Both the position numbers and the translations under genes were made by a program. Positions 33,590-38,489 of a stretch of 40,548 nt of DNA are shown here, piece by piece; positions within the stretch are counted from its first letter, which is position 1; every line of letters starts with the position of its first letter. The notes beneath the pieces were generated by a model. It had not been told where the DNA came from, did not search any database, and saw only the letters and a list, made by a program, of their open reading frames with translations. The stretch comes from a virus. The stretch covers positions 1 to 40,548 of IMG/VR virus record IMGVR_UViG_3300030329_003478; one strand, 5' to 3'.

Positions 33590-33871
33590 TAGCTAACTAA
33601 AAACTTAATAATCCCAAAAAATTTTCGCGAATTTCGCTTCGCTCAATTCGCTTTCTTGGGATTCTCCGGTTCTCCTTCGGAGAATTATGTAGCCTTCGGC
33701 TGCTATATAATCAGGCTTCGCCTGACCTTTCTCTTTCCCTATTCTCTCGTCTGGTTTCGCATAGCAGAACCAGCTTAGTACCCATAAATAGCTACTGAGA
33801 TGCACCAGCGTTAAACCTGGGCTTGGTCGAAGACCGTGCTCAATTCTTAAACCCTAACATGGAGTATTCCC
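33590..33871. other. 282-bp gap with six tandem hairpins
   Basis: No gene. From left: AATCCCAA/TTGGGATT with inner GCGAATT/AATTCGC (33610-33663); TTCTCC-TTC-GGAGAA (33670-33684); GTAGCC-TTC-GGCTGC (33689-33703); TCAGGC-TTC-GCCTGA (33711-33725); CTGGTT/AACCAG with 11-nt loop (33751-33773); TTGGTC-GAA-GACCG region (33823-33836). Three consecutive hairpins share a TTC triloop closed by C-G. No T tract follows any. Possibly an ncRNA, a processed leader or a transcription attenuator after the 32624 gene. Confidence 0.6.
33827..33841 (+). repeat. 15-bp direct repeat, copy 1 (TCGAAGACCGTGCTC)
   Basis: Identical to 33906-33920, 79 bp away inside the next gene. Copy 1 is in the leader and forms a GGTC-GAA-GACC hairpin; copy 2 encodes part of the small protein. 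It suggests that the leader and the gene start were partly duplicated, or that both bind the same factor. Confidence 0.5.
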
Positions 33872-34322: not shown

Positions 34323-34335
34323 AAAGGAGGTGATC
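34320..34335 (+). promoter_or_regulatory. 16-nt perfect complement of a 16S rRNA 3' end
   Basis: TAGAAAGGAGGTGATC is the exact complement of GATCACCTCCTTTCTA, the 3' tail of 16S rRNA in many bacteria (not E. coli, which ends CCTTA). Normal SDs match 4-8 bases. No start codon lies at normal spacing; the next ATG (34369) comes after a hairpin that would shorten the distance to about 12 nt. It may be an extended ribosome-docking site for a leader ORF or the following gene. Confidence 0.6.
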
Positions 34336-34341
34336 GGCACA

Positions 34342-34388
34342 GAGGGCTTTCCCCCCAGAGAGCCCTCGATGCTGGTAATCCCACCAGC
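34342..34388 (+). ncRNA. Two-hairpin leader, copy A
   Basis: Hairpin 1 GAGGGCT/AGCCCTC (34342-34348 and 34361-34367, loop starting TTCCCCCC). Hairpin 2 GCTGGT-AATCCC-ACCAGC (34371-34388). Hairpin 2 matches GCTGGC-AATTCC-GTCAGC at 34809-34826, with a T-A to C-G compensatory change in the closing pair and a G-C to G-T change next to it. It precedes ATG 34409 (SD AAAGGAAC). Confidence 0.6.
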
Positions 34389-34425
34389 CAACAATCAAAA
34401 GGAACTAAATGAACATCCTTATTGA
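34369..34425 (+). CDS. Possible 18-aa leader peptide
   Basis: ATG 34369 opens a short frame (MLVIPPANNQKELNEHPY) ending inside the 34409 gene. Its only SD is the long 16S-complementary element 34320-34335, 33 nt upstream of the ATG, which folding of hairpin 1 would bring close. If translated it would melt hairpin 2. Weak evidence; listed because of the unusual SD. Confidence 0.25.
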   Translation: MLVIPPANNQKELNEHPY

Positions 34426-34774
34426 ATCACAACTTAAAGAAAACTACGGAGCTCACGACTGGAACGGAGAAGGTCAATGCCCTCAATATTGGAAATTCAA
34501 AGGCGGTAATTCTTATGTGTTTAAAAACGCAGAGAATTTCAATGAAGCCCTCAGATATTTCAATGAGGTCATTGCTATCCCTTCCCCTTATTACCGTGAA
34601 TATGTTGTCAACATTACGGAAATCATTGCTCCTGTAGGAATGTTCATTACTGACTATGAACATGACCAAATTAAAAACGAAGGCAAGATTGTCTTTGAGT
34701 CTCAACGAATCGATATGAGACATCCTGCAGTTCAAAACAGATGGGCAACAGTCAACGAAGCTAGACTAAGTTGA
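34409..34774 (+). CDS. Hypothetical phage/plasmid protein (121 aa)
   Basis: The start NILIESQLKENYGAHDW with QYWKFKGGNSYVF resembles a small conserved protein found on phages and plasmids; I know no function for it. Mixed alpha/beta, soluble. SD AAAGGAAC. It is preceded by leader copy A and followed by leader copy B. Confidence 0.65.
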   Translation: MNILIESQLKENYGAHDWNGEGQCPQYWKFKGGNSYVFKNAENFNEALRYFNEVIAIPSPYYREYVVNITEIIAPVGMFITDYEHDQIKNEGKIVFESQRIDMRHPAVQNRWATVNEARLS

Positions 34775-34780
34775 AAGCCA

Positions 34781-34826
34781 AGGCGGTATTCCCCTGAGTA
34801 CCGTCTAAGCTGGCAATTCCGTCAGC
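34781..34826 (+). ncRNA. Two-hairpin leader, copy B
   Basis: Hairpin 1 AGGCGGTA/TACCGTCT (34781-34788 and 34799-34806, loop TTCCCCTGAG) is identical in stem to copy D at 36401-36425. Hairpin 2 GCTGGC-AATTCC-GTCAGC (34809-34826) matches copy A. It ends right before the AACCGGAGAAGT box that provides the SD of the 34844 gene. It fills the whole gap between two genes. Confidence 0.65.
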
Positions 34827-34843
34827 ATAACCGGAGAAGTCTC

Positions 34844-35056
34844 ATGTCTGACTATCCCTTCGATGTGGATGCAGAGCATGATGAACGTGTTATCCAGGAT
34901 ATGATCGAACTACACGCTTATGAGTATCATTACTCTCAGCAGCATCCAGTTCGTTACTTCCTGGAAGTTATAACAGGGAAAATCAAGCTCTGGTTCCACC
35001 AAAAGACATTTAAGCTGAGAGAACGATTAGGGTTAGAGGAACCTATAATCTTCTAG
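34844..35056 (+). CDS. Hypothetical protein (70 aa)
   Basis: Small acidic/aromatic protein (MSDYPFDVDAEHDERVIQDM, then YEYHYSQQHPVRYFLEVITG), helical C-terminus with KTFKLRERLGLEEP. No domain recognised. SD within AACCGGAGAAGTCTC-ATG. Confidence 0.6.
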   Translation: MSDYPFDVDAEHDERVIQDMIELHAYEYHYSQQHPVRYFLEVITGKIKLWFHQKTFKLRERLGLEEPIIF

Positions 35057-35059
35057 CCC

Positions 35060-35290
35060 ATGTTCTCGACTGCACTTATGACCGCAATCATAACGGTCAT
35101 AGGACTTGTCTTCATCTTCGCCAGAATCGGCCTAGACCGTATTCTTCAATTCGGTATTTGGATCGATCTGGCAGTCACAGCCGGTGTGTTATTGATCTTC
35201 CAAGGATCAGCCACCGGCATCCTCTCTGCAGCTTTAACCGGAGCACTCCTCTCAGCAGTTCTTTGGTTCATAGCACGCAGAAAACCCTAA
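35060..35290 (+). CDS. Small membrane protein (76 aa)
   Basis: Two or three hydrophobic segments: LMTAIITVIGLVFIFARIGL (about 6-25), ILQFGIWIDLAVTAGVLLIF (about 28-48) and ATGILSAALTGALLSAVLWF (about 51-70), ending ARRKP. It has the look of a small inner-membrane protein, holin-like or exclusion-type, and is the second such gene in this operon. It starts 4 nt after the previous stop with a weak SD, so it is probably coupled. Confidence 0.58.
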   Translation: MFSTALMTAIITVIGLVFIFARIGLDRILQFGIWIDLAVTAGVLLIFQGSATGILSAALTGALLSAVLWFIARRKP

Positions 35291-35302
35291 CCGGAAAAGT
35301 CT

Positions 35303-35512
35303 ATGGATAATACTTTGAAGGCCGTAGATAAAGCTTGGCAGGAATACGATAAGACCGTTCGGCAATTCTATTCCTCTCAAGATCAAGTCCCACCTATTCT
35401 CATGGATAAACTCCAAGACCTAGACCGTAGTCTCTGGGAAATGCGAGTTCAGATTACAACTGTCCATGACAGCCTTATTCAAATCACAAATGTTCTGACT
35501 CATCAGAACTAA
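35303..35512 (+). CDS. Hypothetical coiled-coil protein (69 aa)
   Basis: Helical, heptad-like (LKAVDKAWQEYDKTVRQFY, LDRSLWEMRVQITTVHDSLI). Soluble, probably an oligomer. SD AACCGGAAAAGTCT-ATG. It lies directly after the membrane protein, so they may work together. Confidence 0.6.
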   Translation: MDNTLKAVDKAWQEYDKTVRQFYSSQDQVPPILMDKLQDLDRSLWEMRVQITTVHDSLIQITNVLTHQN

Positions 35513-35519
35513 CTCACCT

Positions 35520-35564
35520 GGGGGCTTCCCTGCCCCCTCATTTTCTGGTACATATTTCGTGTAC
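35520..35564 (+). ncRNA. Two-hairpin leader, copy C
   Basis: Hairpin 1 GGGGGC-TTCCCT-GCCCCC (35520-35537), very GC-rich, followed by TCATTTTCT. Hairpin 2 GTACA-TATTTCG-TGTAC (35548-35564). It precedes ATG 35586 (SD GAAAGGAAAC). Hairpin 1 could also act as a terminator or attenuator because a short T-rich stretch follows. Confidence 0.5.
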
Positions 35565-35585
35565 TCAATACACAGAAAGGAAACT

Positions 35586-35924
35586 ATGACCTTAATCCCT
35601 AAAGATATTCGGGATCTCAATTCCGAAGAAGCTCTTACCCTTCAGGTTCATCACATTCTCAAAATGCAACAGCATCTCATTGGAGAGCTTTGCGATGGTG
35701 CTGATGCAGAGTTTCTTGAGGAACTTGAAGTATCCGATATTAACGAAGTCGTTGAACGATTTCTCAAGAACAATCCCAAACCTTTAGTTATCGAACCGTT
35801 TCCGGTTTACGATGAAGAACCTCAAAGTTATTCCCCCGACAACTATTCAGATGATGGTGAAGCCCTGGCTAGTGCAGGATTCGGCACAGATGAAGATTAT
35901 GGTGGAGGAGATGAACGCTTATGA
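35586..35924 (+). CDS. Acidic hypothetical protein (112 aa)
   Basis: Strongly acidic (many Asp/Glu, tail DEDYGGGDERL). Start ATG 35586 has SD AAAGGAAAC; the earlier in-frame ATG 35559 lies in leader hairpin 2. Helical N-terminal half (LNSEEALTLQVHHILKMQQH), disordered C-terminus. DNA mimicry, as in some antirestriction proteins, is possible but not shown. Stop overlaps the next start (ATGA). Confidence 0.58.
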   Translation: MTLIPKDIRDLNSEEALTLQVHHILKMQQHLIGELCDGADAEFLEELEVSDINEVVERFLKNNPKPLVIEPFPVYDEEPQSYSPDNYSDDGEALASAGFGTDEDYGGGDERL

Positions 35925-36115
35925 GATGCCCTAAATGCAATCATTTCATGCATCGAACAGGACAATACTTTCACAAAAAAGAAATGTATTACACTTGTAG
36001 AAAATGCAGTCATCAGCATATTGAACCTATGTTTGAACCTTACAATAAAAATGCACCGTTAAAGAAATTCGATAACGGAATAATGCAATGGTATGAAAGG
36101 ACAAATAAACAATGA
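35921..36115 (+). CDS. Zinc-ribbon protein (64 aa)
   Basis: Two CxxC knuckles, CPKC (3-6) and CRKC (27-30), with aromatic residues between them: a single zinc ribbon of the type found in transcription or nucleic-acid-binding proteins. Coupled by ATGA on both sides. Likely DNA- or RNA-binding regulatory protein. Confidence 0.65.
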   Translation: MRCPKCNHFMHRTGQYFHKKEMYYTCRKCSHQHIEPMFEPYNKNAPLKKFDNGIMQWYERTNKQ

Positions 36116-36393
36116 CTGAACGATATAAAATTCGATACCAATATCCTGTTATGAAAATAGTTGAGGTTACAGTAGAAGCTGAAAGCTTAACTGAAATACA
36201 GGAAGAATACCGTGCAAACGGTGAACTTAAAAAAGAAGCATTAATTGATCCTAGTTCCTATGTGAATCATGGAGAAATTAAATATGAACGACTAGACCAA
36301 TTTGGAATAGCTCGTTTAGCTGATGGTCAACTCGACTATTGTTGGGACAATCTCGCTTATTGGGATTGTATTGAAACAAACATAGAAGAGTGA
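36112..36393 (+). CDS. Hypothetical protein (93 aa)
   Basis: Small mixed alpha/beta protein (RYKIRYQYPVMKIVEVTVEA, ending IARLADGQLDYCWDNLAYWD). No family recognised. Start overlaps the previous stop (ATGA). Confidence 0.6.
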   Translation: MTERYKIRYQYPVMKIVEVTVEAESLTEIQEEYRANGELKKEALIDPSSYVNHGEIKYERLDQFGIARLADGQLDYCWDNLAYWDCIETNIEE

Positions 36394-36400
36394 ACTGCCA

Positions 36401-36448
36401 AGGCGGTATTCGATGAGTACCGTCTAAGCAGAGCACTAATGCTTCTGC
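36401..36448 (+). ncRNA. Two-hairpin leader, copy D
   Basis: Hairpin 1 AGGCGGTA/TACCGTCT (36401-36408 and 36418-36425, loop TTCGATGAG) has the same stem as copy B. Hairpin 2 is GCAGA-GCA/TGC-T-TCTGC (36428-36448) with a CTAA loop, a different sequence in the same position. The linker CTAAGC between hairpins and GCATAAC after them are shared with copy B. It precedes the ArdC-like gene (SD TAGGAGGATCA). Confidence 0.65.
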
Positions 36449-36473
36449 ATAACTGCCATATCTAGGAGGATCA

Positions 36474-37385
36474 ATGGCAAAACACATCAAAACAGTTGAG
36501 AAAGAGATCACGACTAAAATCGTGGACTCTCTCGAACAAGCCATCCAATCCGGTAGGGAATCCCAATGGAAAATGCCTTGGATTTCCGATGGAACTGGTA
36601 TGCCTGTCTCGTTTACGACCGGCAAACCTTATCGTGGTGGCAATCTTTTGATCCTATTGATGGCCCAGGTGGAGCACGGCTTCACCAGTAATCAATGGAT
36701 TACCAAAAAACAACTGTTACAAGCTGGTGGAAGGATTCCCAGAGAAGACTTCCCCAATAATCAAACGTGTTACTTCTTCAAAGAAATGGAGATCACTGAT
36801 GAAGAAACCGGACAAATCAAAAAACGATGGTTTGCAAGGACTTACCAAGTGTGGAACTTGGCTCAAACCAACATCGAAATTAAAACTCCTGAAAAGGAAT
36901 CGCAGACTGAAGCGGAGTTCGGAGAACTTGCTCAGTTCCTTAATGGTGGTACGGCTGATGTCCGTCACGGACAAAGCAAAGCCTATTACCATCCTAGACA
37001 GGATTTTATCGGTCTTCCCAATCCTGAAGATTTTCAATCGGAAGGAGATTACCTCGCAACAAGAGCCCATGAGCTCGTCCATTGGACAGGACATGACTCC
37101 AGGCTCCAGCGAGATCTTCAGGCCAAGGGAACCGAGGCCTACGCCTTCGAGGAACTAATTGCAGAATTAGGATCTTCGTTTATATCGGCAGAGTACGATC
37201 TTCCGCACAAAGTCCAGGAAGGACATGAGGAATATCTACTTCATTGGGTCAAAGCCTTATCCAGCGATACCTCGTTGGTGTTCAAGGCTGCCAAAAAAGC
37301 ATCTGAAGCAGTAGCTTATCTGAAGAAGGATGCAGGAGTGGTGCAGCAACCGCAAGGTGTCGAGCCAAACGCGATTGCTGCTTAA
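36474..37385 (+). CDS. ArdC-like antirestriction protein
   Basis: 303 residues. The N-terminal part is an ssDNA-binding-like domain (EITTKIVDSLEQAIQSGR, PWISDGTGMPVSFTTGKPYR). The C-terminal part is a zincin-type domain: HELVHWTGHD (H199, E200, H203, H207) and EELIAELGSSF with the likely third ligand. ArdC proteins protect incoming plasmid or phage DNA from restriction. Strong SD TAGGAGGATCA. Its place in an accessory operon fits a counter-defence role. Confidence 0.85.
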   Translation: MAKHIKTVEKEITTKIVDSLEQAIQSGRESQWKMPWISDGTGMPVSFTTGKPYRGGNLLILLMAQVEHGFTSNQWITKKQLLQAGGRIPREDFPNNQTCYFFKEMEITDEETGQIKKRWFARTYQVWNLAQTNIEIKTPEKESQTEAEFGELAQFLNGGTADVRHGQSKAYYHPRQDFIGLPNPEDFQSEGDYLATRAHELVHWTGHDSRLQRDLQAKGTEAYAFEELIAELGSSFISAEYDLPHKVQEGHEEYLLHWVKALSSDTSLVFKAAKKASEAVAYLKKDAGVVQQPQGVEPNAIAA

Positions 37386-37392
37386 TTTAGCT

Positions 37393-37457
37393 AACCGGAG
37401 AAGTCAGCTTTAATAGTAATATCTCATGACTGACTTCTCTATGTCAAGGAGTAATTT
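37393..37457 (+). promoter_or_regulatory. Leader with stem over the SD box and an 11-aa upstream frame
   Basis: An AACCGGAGAAGT box (37393-37404) is not followed by a close ATG. Its end GAAGTCAG can pair with CTGACTTC (about 37428-37436). Inside the second arm a short frame (MTDFSMSRSNL) starts at 37426 and its stop overlaps the ATG of the 142-aa gene (ATGA). This could be translational coupling through a leader ORF. Confidence 0.35.
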
Positions 37458-38257: not shown

Positions 38258-38263
38258 TCTGTA

Positions 38264-38291
38264 GGCAATATATCGGCAAAACTAAGTGGAG
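38264..38291. repeat. 28-bp direct repeat flanking attP, copy 1
   Basis: A 28-bp sequence containing TATATCGGCAAAACTAAG is repeated with one mismatch at 38462-38489. A shorter relative (ATATCGGCA) is at 38300-38308. Pairs of such repeats on both sides of a recombination core are typical of integrase arm-type sites. Confidence 0.65.
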
Positions 38292-38362: not shown

Positions 38363-38412
38363 TGGTGGGCCAGGCAGGACTTGAACCTGCGACCGATCGA
38401 TTATGAGTCGTG
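38363..38412 (-). tRNA. 3' half of a CAU-anticodon tRNA (attP core)
   Basis: In the minus direction, from 38410 down, the sequence reads an anticodon loop CTCATAA, the 3' side of its stem, T-arm GCAGG-TTCAAGT-CCTGC, acceptor strand CTGGCCC, discriminator A and CCA (38365-38363). The matching 5' acceptor strand (GGGCCAG) and D-arm are absent, so it is not a functional tRNA. It is the part a phage carries to restore a host tRNA-Met/Ile(CAU) gene after integration. The switch point lies in the anticodon stem-loop. Confidence 0.75.
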
Positions 38413-38461
38413 CGTTCCCCCTAGTGTTTCCAATGGGTCACAGGGACCCCATGCCTCTATT

Positions 38462-38489
38462 GGCATTATATCGGCAAAACTAAGTGGAG
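38462..38489. repeat. 28-bp direct repeat flanking attP, copy 2
   Basis: Second copy of the 38264-38291 repeat (one mismatch). Its last bases GTGGAG also supply the SD for the gene at 38497. It lies on the integrase side of the tRNA fragment. Confidence 0.65.

Follow-up and report, generated by a model that had tools for sequence, protein, structure and literature searches.

The early genes of phage T7 are separated by RNase III processing hairpins. The put antitermination RNAs of phage HK022, which consist of two tandem stem-loops, are located at the start of the early transcripts and suppress downstream termination by acting on RNA polymerase. In T4-type phages, promoter early stem-loop (PeSL) cassettes are described, at second hand, as repeated intergenic stem-loops between small accessory genes (PMC4503421). 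In phage T4, a hairpin of the gp43 operator precedes the start codon by about 40 nt (PMC3014915).

The locus described here contains, in one operon, diverged copies (A, B, and D) of one RNA element of about 51 nt. The recurrence of such structured leaders within an operon suggests that the phage adjusts the output of individual cistrons after transcription.

Phage genome and probable host

The window, i.e., the whole 40,548-nt stretch of DNA that was analyzed, is a virus record of its own. Given the 98-nt direct repeat found at both of its ends, it very probably represents a phage genome that is circular and complete. Its portal and that of Pelagibacter phage HTVC010P-like viruses share 38% identity, and the phage also encodes a RecE-like exonuclease, a DnaC-like loader, RusA, SSB, a repressor-like protein, and an integrase, next to which an attP core is found:

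38363-38410, adjoining the integrase: attP core, 48 nt that recur without a mismatch in the 3' part of tRNA-Met(CAT) of two SAR324-group MAGs

Two copies of a 34-nt repeat (38258-38291 and 38456-38489, 91% identical) flank this core, and are possibly the integrase arm sites. Relatives of the integrase are present in 12 of the 52 genomes of the SAR324 phylum; for the portal, no match was found in SAR324 genomes, except a marginal one. Together, the tRNA-Met identity and the integrase relatives suggest that this podovirus-like phage is temperate, and that its host is probably a marine bacterium of the SAR324 group. The viruses of this uncultured group are hardly studied, and one literature search on SAR324 and phages returned no title about SAR324 phages.

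Three copies of a two-hairpin element

The first-pass annotation had described four intergenic gaps (A to D) as recurrent two-hairpin leaders. The features of these gaps are as follows:

34341..34392, plus strand: element A, leader of the gene for the 121-aa 'NYGAHDW' protein; recovered by a model built without A
34342-34367, plus strand: A hairpin 1, 10 bp, loop CCCCCA, followed by the linker GAT
34371-34388, plus strand: A hairpin 2, 6 bp, loop AATCCC, tail CAAC
34781..34831, plus strand: element B, before the 70-aa ORFan gene
34782-34805, plus strand: B hairpin 1, 10 bp (11 counting an A-T pair), loop CCCT, linker TAA
34809-34826, plus strand: B hairpin 2, loop AATTCC, tail ATAAC
35520..35537, plus strand: copy C of the first-pass annotation, GGGGGC-TTCCCT-GCCCCC then TCATTTTC, a terminator pattern
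36401..36453, plus strand: element D, before the ArdC-like gene
36402-36424, plus strand: D hairpin 1, stem identical to that of B, loop GAT, linker TAA
36428-36448, plus strand: D hairpin 2, of different sequence, 8 bp plus a bulge, loop CTAA, tail ATAAC

In A, B, and D alike, a first stem of 10-11 bp is joined by a 3-nt linker to a second one, after which comes AAC. The top of the hairpin 1 stem is invariant (U·G, U-A, and C-G pairs), while the loop that it carries varies and is not conserved. The TTC with which all first-hairpin loops had been said to begin is, in A, B, and D, this stem top, pairing with GAG, so that the claim was partly wrong; the identity of the first stems of B and D, also reported at first pass, is borne out. 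Within the whole window, UUC...GAG-capped stems of at least 10 bp are found only at A, B, and D.

B and D are 81% identical over 55 nt (E 3.5e-8), with a near-identical stretch of about 36 nt, and none of 2000 shuffles reaches their similarity. On sequence alone, the A-B similarity is weaker, being equaled by 7 of 2000 shuffles. Covariance models were built both from B and D only (R2) and from all three elements (R1). R2 ranks A third in the window (25.3 bits, E 4.3e-7), as its only match besides B and D themselves; the next matches, to D and B read on the opposite strand, score no more than 12.7 bits (E 0.02 or worse). As unrelated hairpins would trivially show 'compensatory changes', a simulation was needed, and the A-B match was equaled in only 5 of 200,000 simulated unrelated two-hairpin elements of the same pair composition. 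These comparisons argue for a real small RNA element, of which A, B, and D are the paralogous copies.

Copy C does not belong with them. It has no similarity to A, B, or D beyond that of shuffles, it is absent from the R1 matches even at E<=10 with filters off, and R2 gives no match there either; it was, thus, rejected as a fourth copy. By its sequence, it looks like a weak terminator, unrelated to the element. The recurrence first seen in four gaps hence holds, by shared sequence and architecture, for three of them.

Base pairing and folding

Standard pairs occupy 46 of the 47 pair cells across A, B, and D, versus 86% in shuffles, a figure that is only a guide, as the alignment consists of three rows and was read with the structure in mind. 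Six pairs are changed on both sides, three in each hairpin, versus zero or one double-sided change when the pairing is slid by 1-3 columns as a control. The compensatory change between A and B in hairpin 2, noticed at first pass, is real, and the three in hairpin 1 had been missed.

All four gaps out-fold dinucleotide shuffles (z -4.4, -3.6, -3.5, and -3.1). Nevertheless, almost all gaps of this genome that exceed 60 nt have strong structure, the element-free ones reaching z -2.8 to -4.8, so folding alone says little, and the similarity between gaps is the informative part. What is special in A, B, and D is their shared sequence and architecture, not strong folding alone. A 282-nt gap upstream of the operon (33590-33871) contains a series of TTCG-capped hairpins (z -4.3).

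The sense strands of B and D fold at -24.3 kcal/mol, versus -11.4 and -15.1 kcal/mol for the antisense strands, and wobble pairs favor the mRNA strand in both. A shows no strand bias, its antisense strand being as well folded as its sense strand. A DNA-level cruciform is disfavored, because the wobble pairs are A-C mismatches on the other strand.

Hairpin 1 has a pairing probability of about 1 in every context folded, for A, B, and D alike. Hairpin 2 reaches 0.9-1.0 in all three when only the segment from hairpin 1 through the start codon is folded, and falls to 0.0 (A), 0.65 (B), and 0.12 (D) on addition of the upstream gap sequence, since the 5' arm of hairpin 2 is then able to pair with the flank on the 5' side of hairpin 1. 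Once that sequence is included, hairpin 2 is not the favored fold in A or D. In gap A, the flank contains the following segment:

34324..34335, plus strand: AAGGAGGTGATC, 12 nt, closely following the stop codon of the preceding gene and located before A hairpin 1

The 3' part of this segment (from GGTGATC, plus the following GGCA) can pair with the A hairpin 2 region, and this alternative fold is the minimum free energy (MFE) structure of gap A. The exchange of hairpin 2 with the 5' flank may be a switch or a prediction artifact. AAGGAGGTGATC, a 12-nt complement of the 16S rRNA 3' end, has no proper start codon nearby; folding of hairpin 1 would bring a small ORF at 34370 (MLVIPPANNQKELNEHPY) within its range.

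Placement and neighboring genes

The elements lie 7-19 nt past a stop codon, and the distance from the end of hairpin 2 to the next start codon is 20 nt (A), 17 nt (B), or 25 nt (D). The Shine-Dalgarno site lies outside the stems, and hairpin 2 covers neither this site nor the start codon. An intrinsic terminator (GC-rich stem plus T-run) is found at none of the three elements and, among gaps A to D, only in C (35520-35537). No plus-strand site of the sigma-70-like promoter pattern, from which host promoters may differ, was found in gaps A to D. The genes that follow the elements are:

34409..34774, plus strand: gene after A, 121-aa protein of an uncharacterized family, with motifs ENYGAHDW and QCPQYWKF
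34844..35056, plus strand: gene after B, 70-aa ORFan with no Pfam or PHROG match
36474..37385, plus strand: gene after D, ArdC-like anti-restriction protein (ArdcN plus zincin-like metallopeptidase)

The 121-aa protein has at least 598 relatives in IMG/VR metagenomic viruses, but phage records gave a single match and plasmids gave none; its family is nearly absent from sequenced isolates. The gene after D matches PF08401 (3.8e-19), PF18818 (1.9e-38), and phrog_7245 (1.5e-60). The ORFan and anti-restriction genes that the copies separate differ in GC content (0.32-0.49).

Gap B (34772-34844) is open in the frame of both neighbors, and a single TGA readthrough would fuse the 121-aa and 70-aa proteins. 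This open frame is probably due to chance, and readthrough was set aside, gaps A, C, and D not being multiples of three. An RBS-like box, ACCGGARAAGTC, is present at 34830-34841, 35290-35301, and 37394-37405, before or near start codons, with 14 matches at up to two mismatches versus 4.7 expected.

Search for relatives

No match to Rfam (4227 families, gathering score) was found in the window. Homologues of the element were found neither by pattern scans of IMG/VR and GTDB genomes, nor by covariance model searches of the retrieved viral loci and the 52 SAR324 genomes, nor by blastn of phage records with D and A. Three weak matches in the SAR324 genomes were taken as chance: two fall within one long conserved gene, which is an ORF in one genome and has a clear homologue in the other, and the third covers mainly hairpin 2. 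One IMG/VR contig carries hairpin 1 alone; a few such cases are expected by chance, on a rough estimate of the collection size, and there is no agreement in gene context.

The downstream genes were also used as guides. R1 found no element in the loci of 80 relatives of the 121-aa protein, nor was any seen in the flanks of about half of these 80, which were inspected, so the idea that the element accompanies the NYGAHDW gene family was rejected. At 28-47% identity, the relatives of ArdC are distant, and the element is missing from the viral records that contain them. For the operon genes, no relatives were found in phages, plasmids, viral contigs, or SAR324 genomes. The nearest IMG/VR relatives of the phage are fragments ending short of the operon, and the absence of the element from them, therefore, shows nothing.

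Judged by the refutation rule set at first pass, the covariance search was only half successful: covarying pairs exist, but only between paralogues of one genome, and no homologue was found in the collections searched. On present evidence, the element appears confined to one phage genome, in three copies, and a family across phages is not established.

Proposed function and alternative explanations

The reading that we favor, with a probability of roughly one half, is that A, B, and D are a paralogous cis-acting mRNA element of intercistronic leaders, which would set the stability and translation of three accessory cistrons. The homology of the copies, their compensated pairing, the better folding of the mRNA strand (B and D), and the placement were computed; every step of the explanation beyond an RNA structure conserved between the copies is what we infer from them. 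Placement, sense-strand pairing, and paralogy suggest that the elements most likely act in cis, after transcription, to control the 121-aa, 70-aa, and ArdC cistrons. In the polycistronic transcript, hairpin 1 would always form, and its conserved cap under a variable loop could serve all three leaders as the point at which a ribonuclease or an RNA-binding factor, from host or phage, recognizes or processes the RNA. Hairpin 2, exchangeable with the 5'-flank pairing, would leave the next cistron with a structured 5' end, and the outcome would be stability and translation set separately for each of the three cistrons.

The first-pass annotation had proposed a new cis-regulatory RNA family. In the case of A, B, and D, a cis-acting structure has the support of leave-one-out detection, compensatory pairs, sense-strand wobbles, and placement; neither the inclusion of C nor the extension to a family across phages is supported. 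The A/B/D element is a plausible new regulatory RNA. A stronger proposal is that SAR324 viruses have a new regulatory RNA family, specific to phages, whose shared two-stem switch (hairpin 2 versus the 5'-flank pairing) would set the anti-restriction and other accessory cistrons one by one; this is doubtful.

Both processing or stabilization and the binding of a repressor would fit the element, and the former is rated somewhat higher because the loops are not conserved, so that no clear ligand or protein contact is seen. A protein-bound translational operator, through which a phage or host RNA-binding protein would repress or activate the three leaders together, as with T4 gp43 and gp32, is, nevertheless, the most serious alternative, considered possible but clearly less probable than the favored reading. 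The stem cap is invariant although the stems have diverged, a protein bound 17-25 nt before the start codon could hinder 30S loading, and the T4 gp43 operator also has a hairpin upstream of a start codon, at about 40 nt (PMC3014915). The variable loops argue against such an operator, as does the lack of an identified RNA-binding protein: the zinc-ribbon protein suggested at first pass as a possible binding partner shows no link to the element, and its one resemblance, to recombinase zinc ribbons, is weak and falls short of the Pfam cut-off.

It is unlikely that the repeats are recombination linkers, i.e., homology blocks for the exchange or deletion of accessory cassettes, with incidental stem-loops, as in PeSL cassettes. 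While the copies do separate ORFan and anti-restriction genes of differing GC content, and the near-identical B/D stretch could recombine, this identity is too short for efficient homologous recombination, the changes between A and B/D preserve pairing rather than sequence, and the gaps, unlike PeSLs, are without a promoter-like site. Least probable of all is a hairpin spacer duplicated by chance and now drifting neutrally, which would suit a genome of hairpin-rich gaps and an element with three copies and no relatives, but not the double-sided changes, the nearly complete pairing, and the unchanged cap, which are not expected of drift.

The element offers a defined 51-nt target for probing and reporters, with an anti-restriction protein among the genes downstream.

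Comparison with known systems

Like the T7 RNase III sites, the elements are stem-loops in the intercistronic gaps of a podovirus operon; their 10-11-bp stems are, however, shorter than the classical T7 sites, and two occur in tandem. With the HK022 put RNAs, they share two tandem stem-loops in a phage RNA, but they precede single internal cistrons, whereas put is found at the start of early transcripts.

As in the T4 gp43 and gp32 mRNA operators, a hairpin precedes the site at which ribosomes bind a phage cistron (PMC3014915). A, B, and D differ from these operators in being three copies before unrelated cistrons, with loops that are not conserved and no known repressor, and they are not operators of the RBS-hiding kind, as their stems leave the Shine-Dalgarno site and the start codon free. 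Finally, while a PeSL is described as a promoter with one stem-loop, and A, B, and D have two stems, compensated changes, and gaps without promoter-like sequence, both are repeated intergenic stem-loops in a region of accessory genes.
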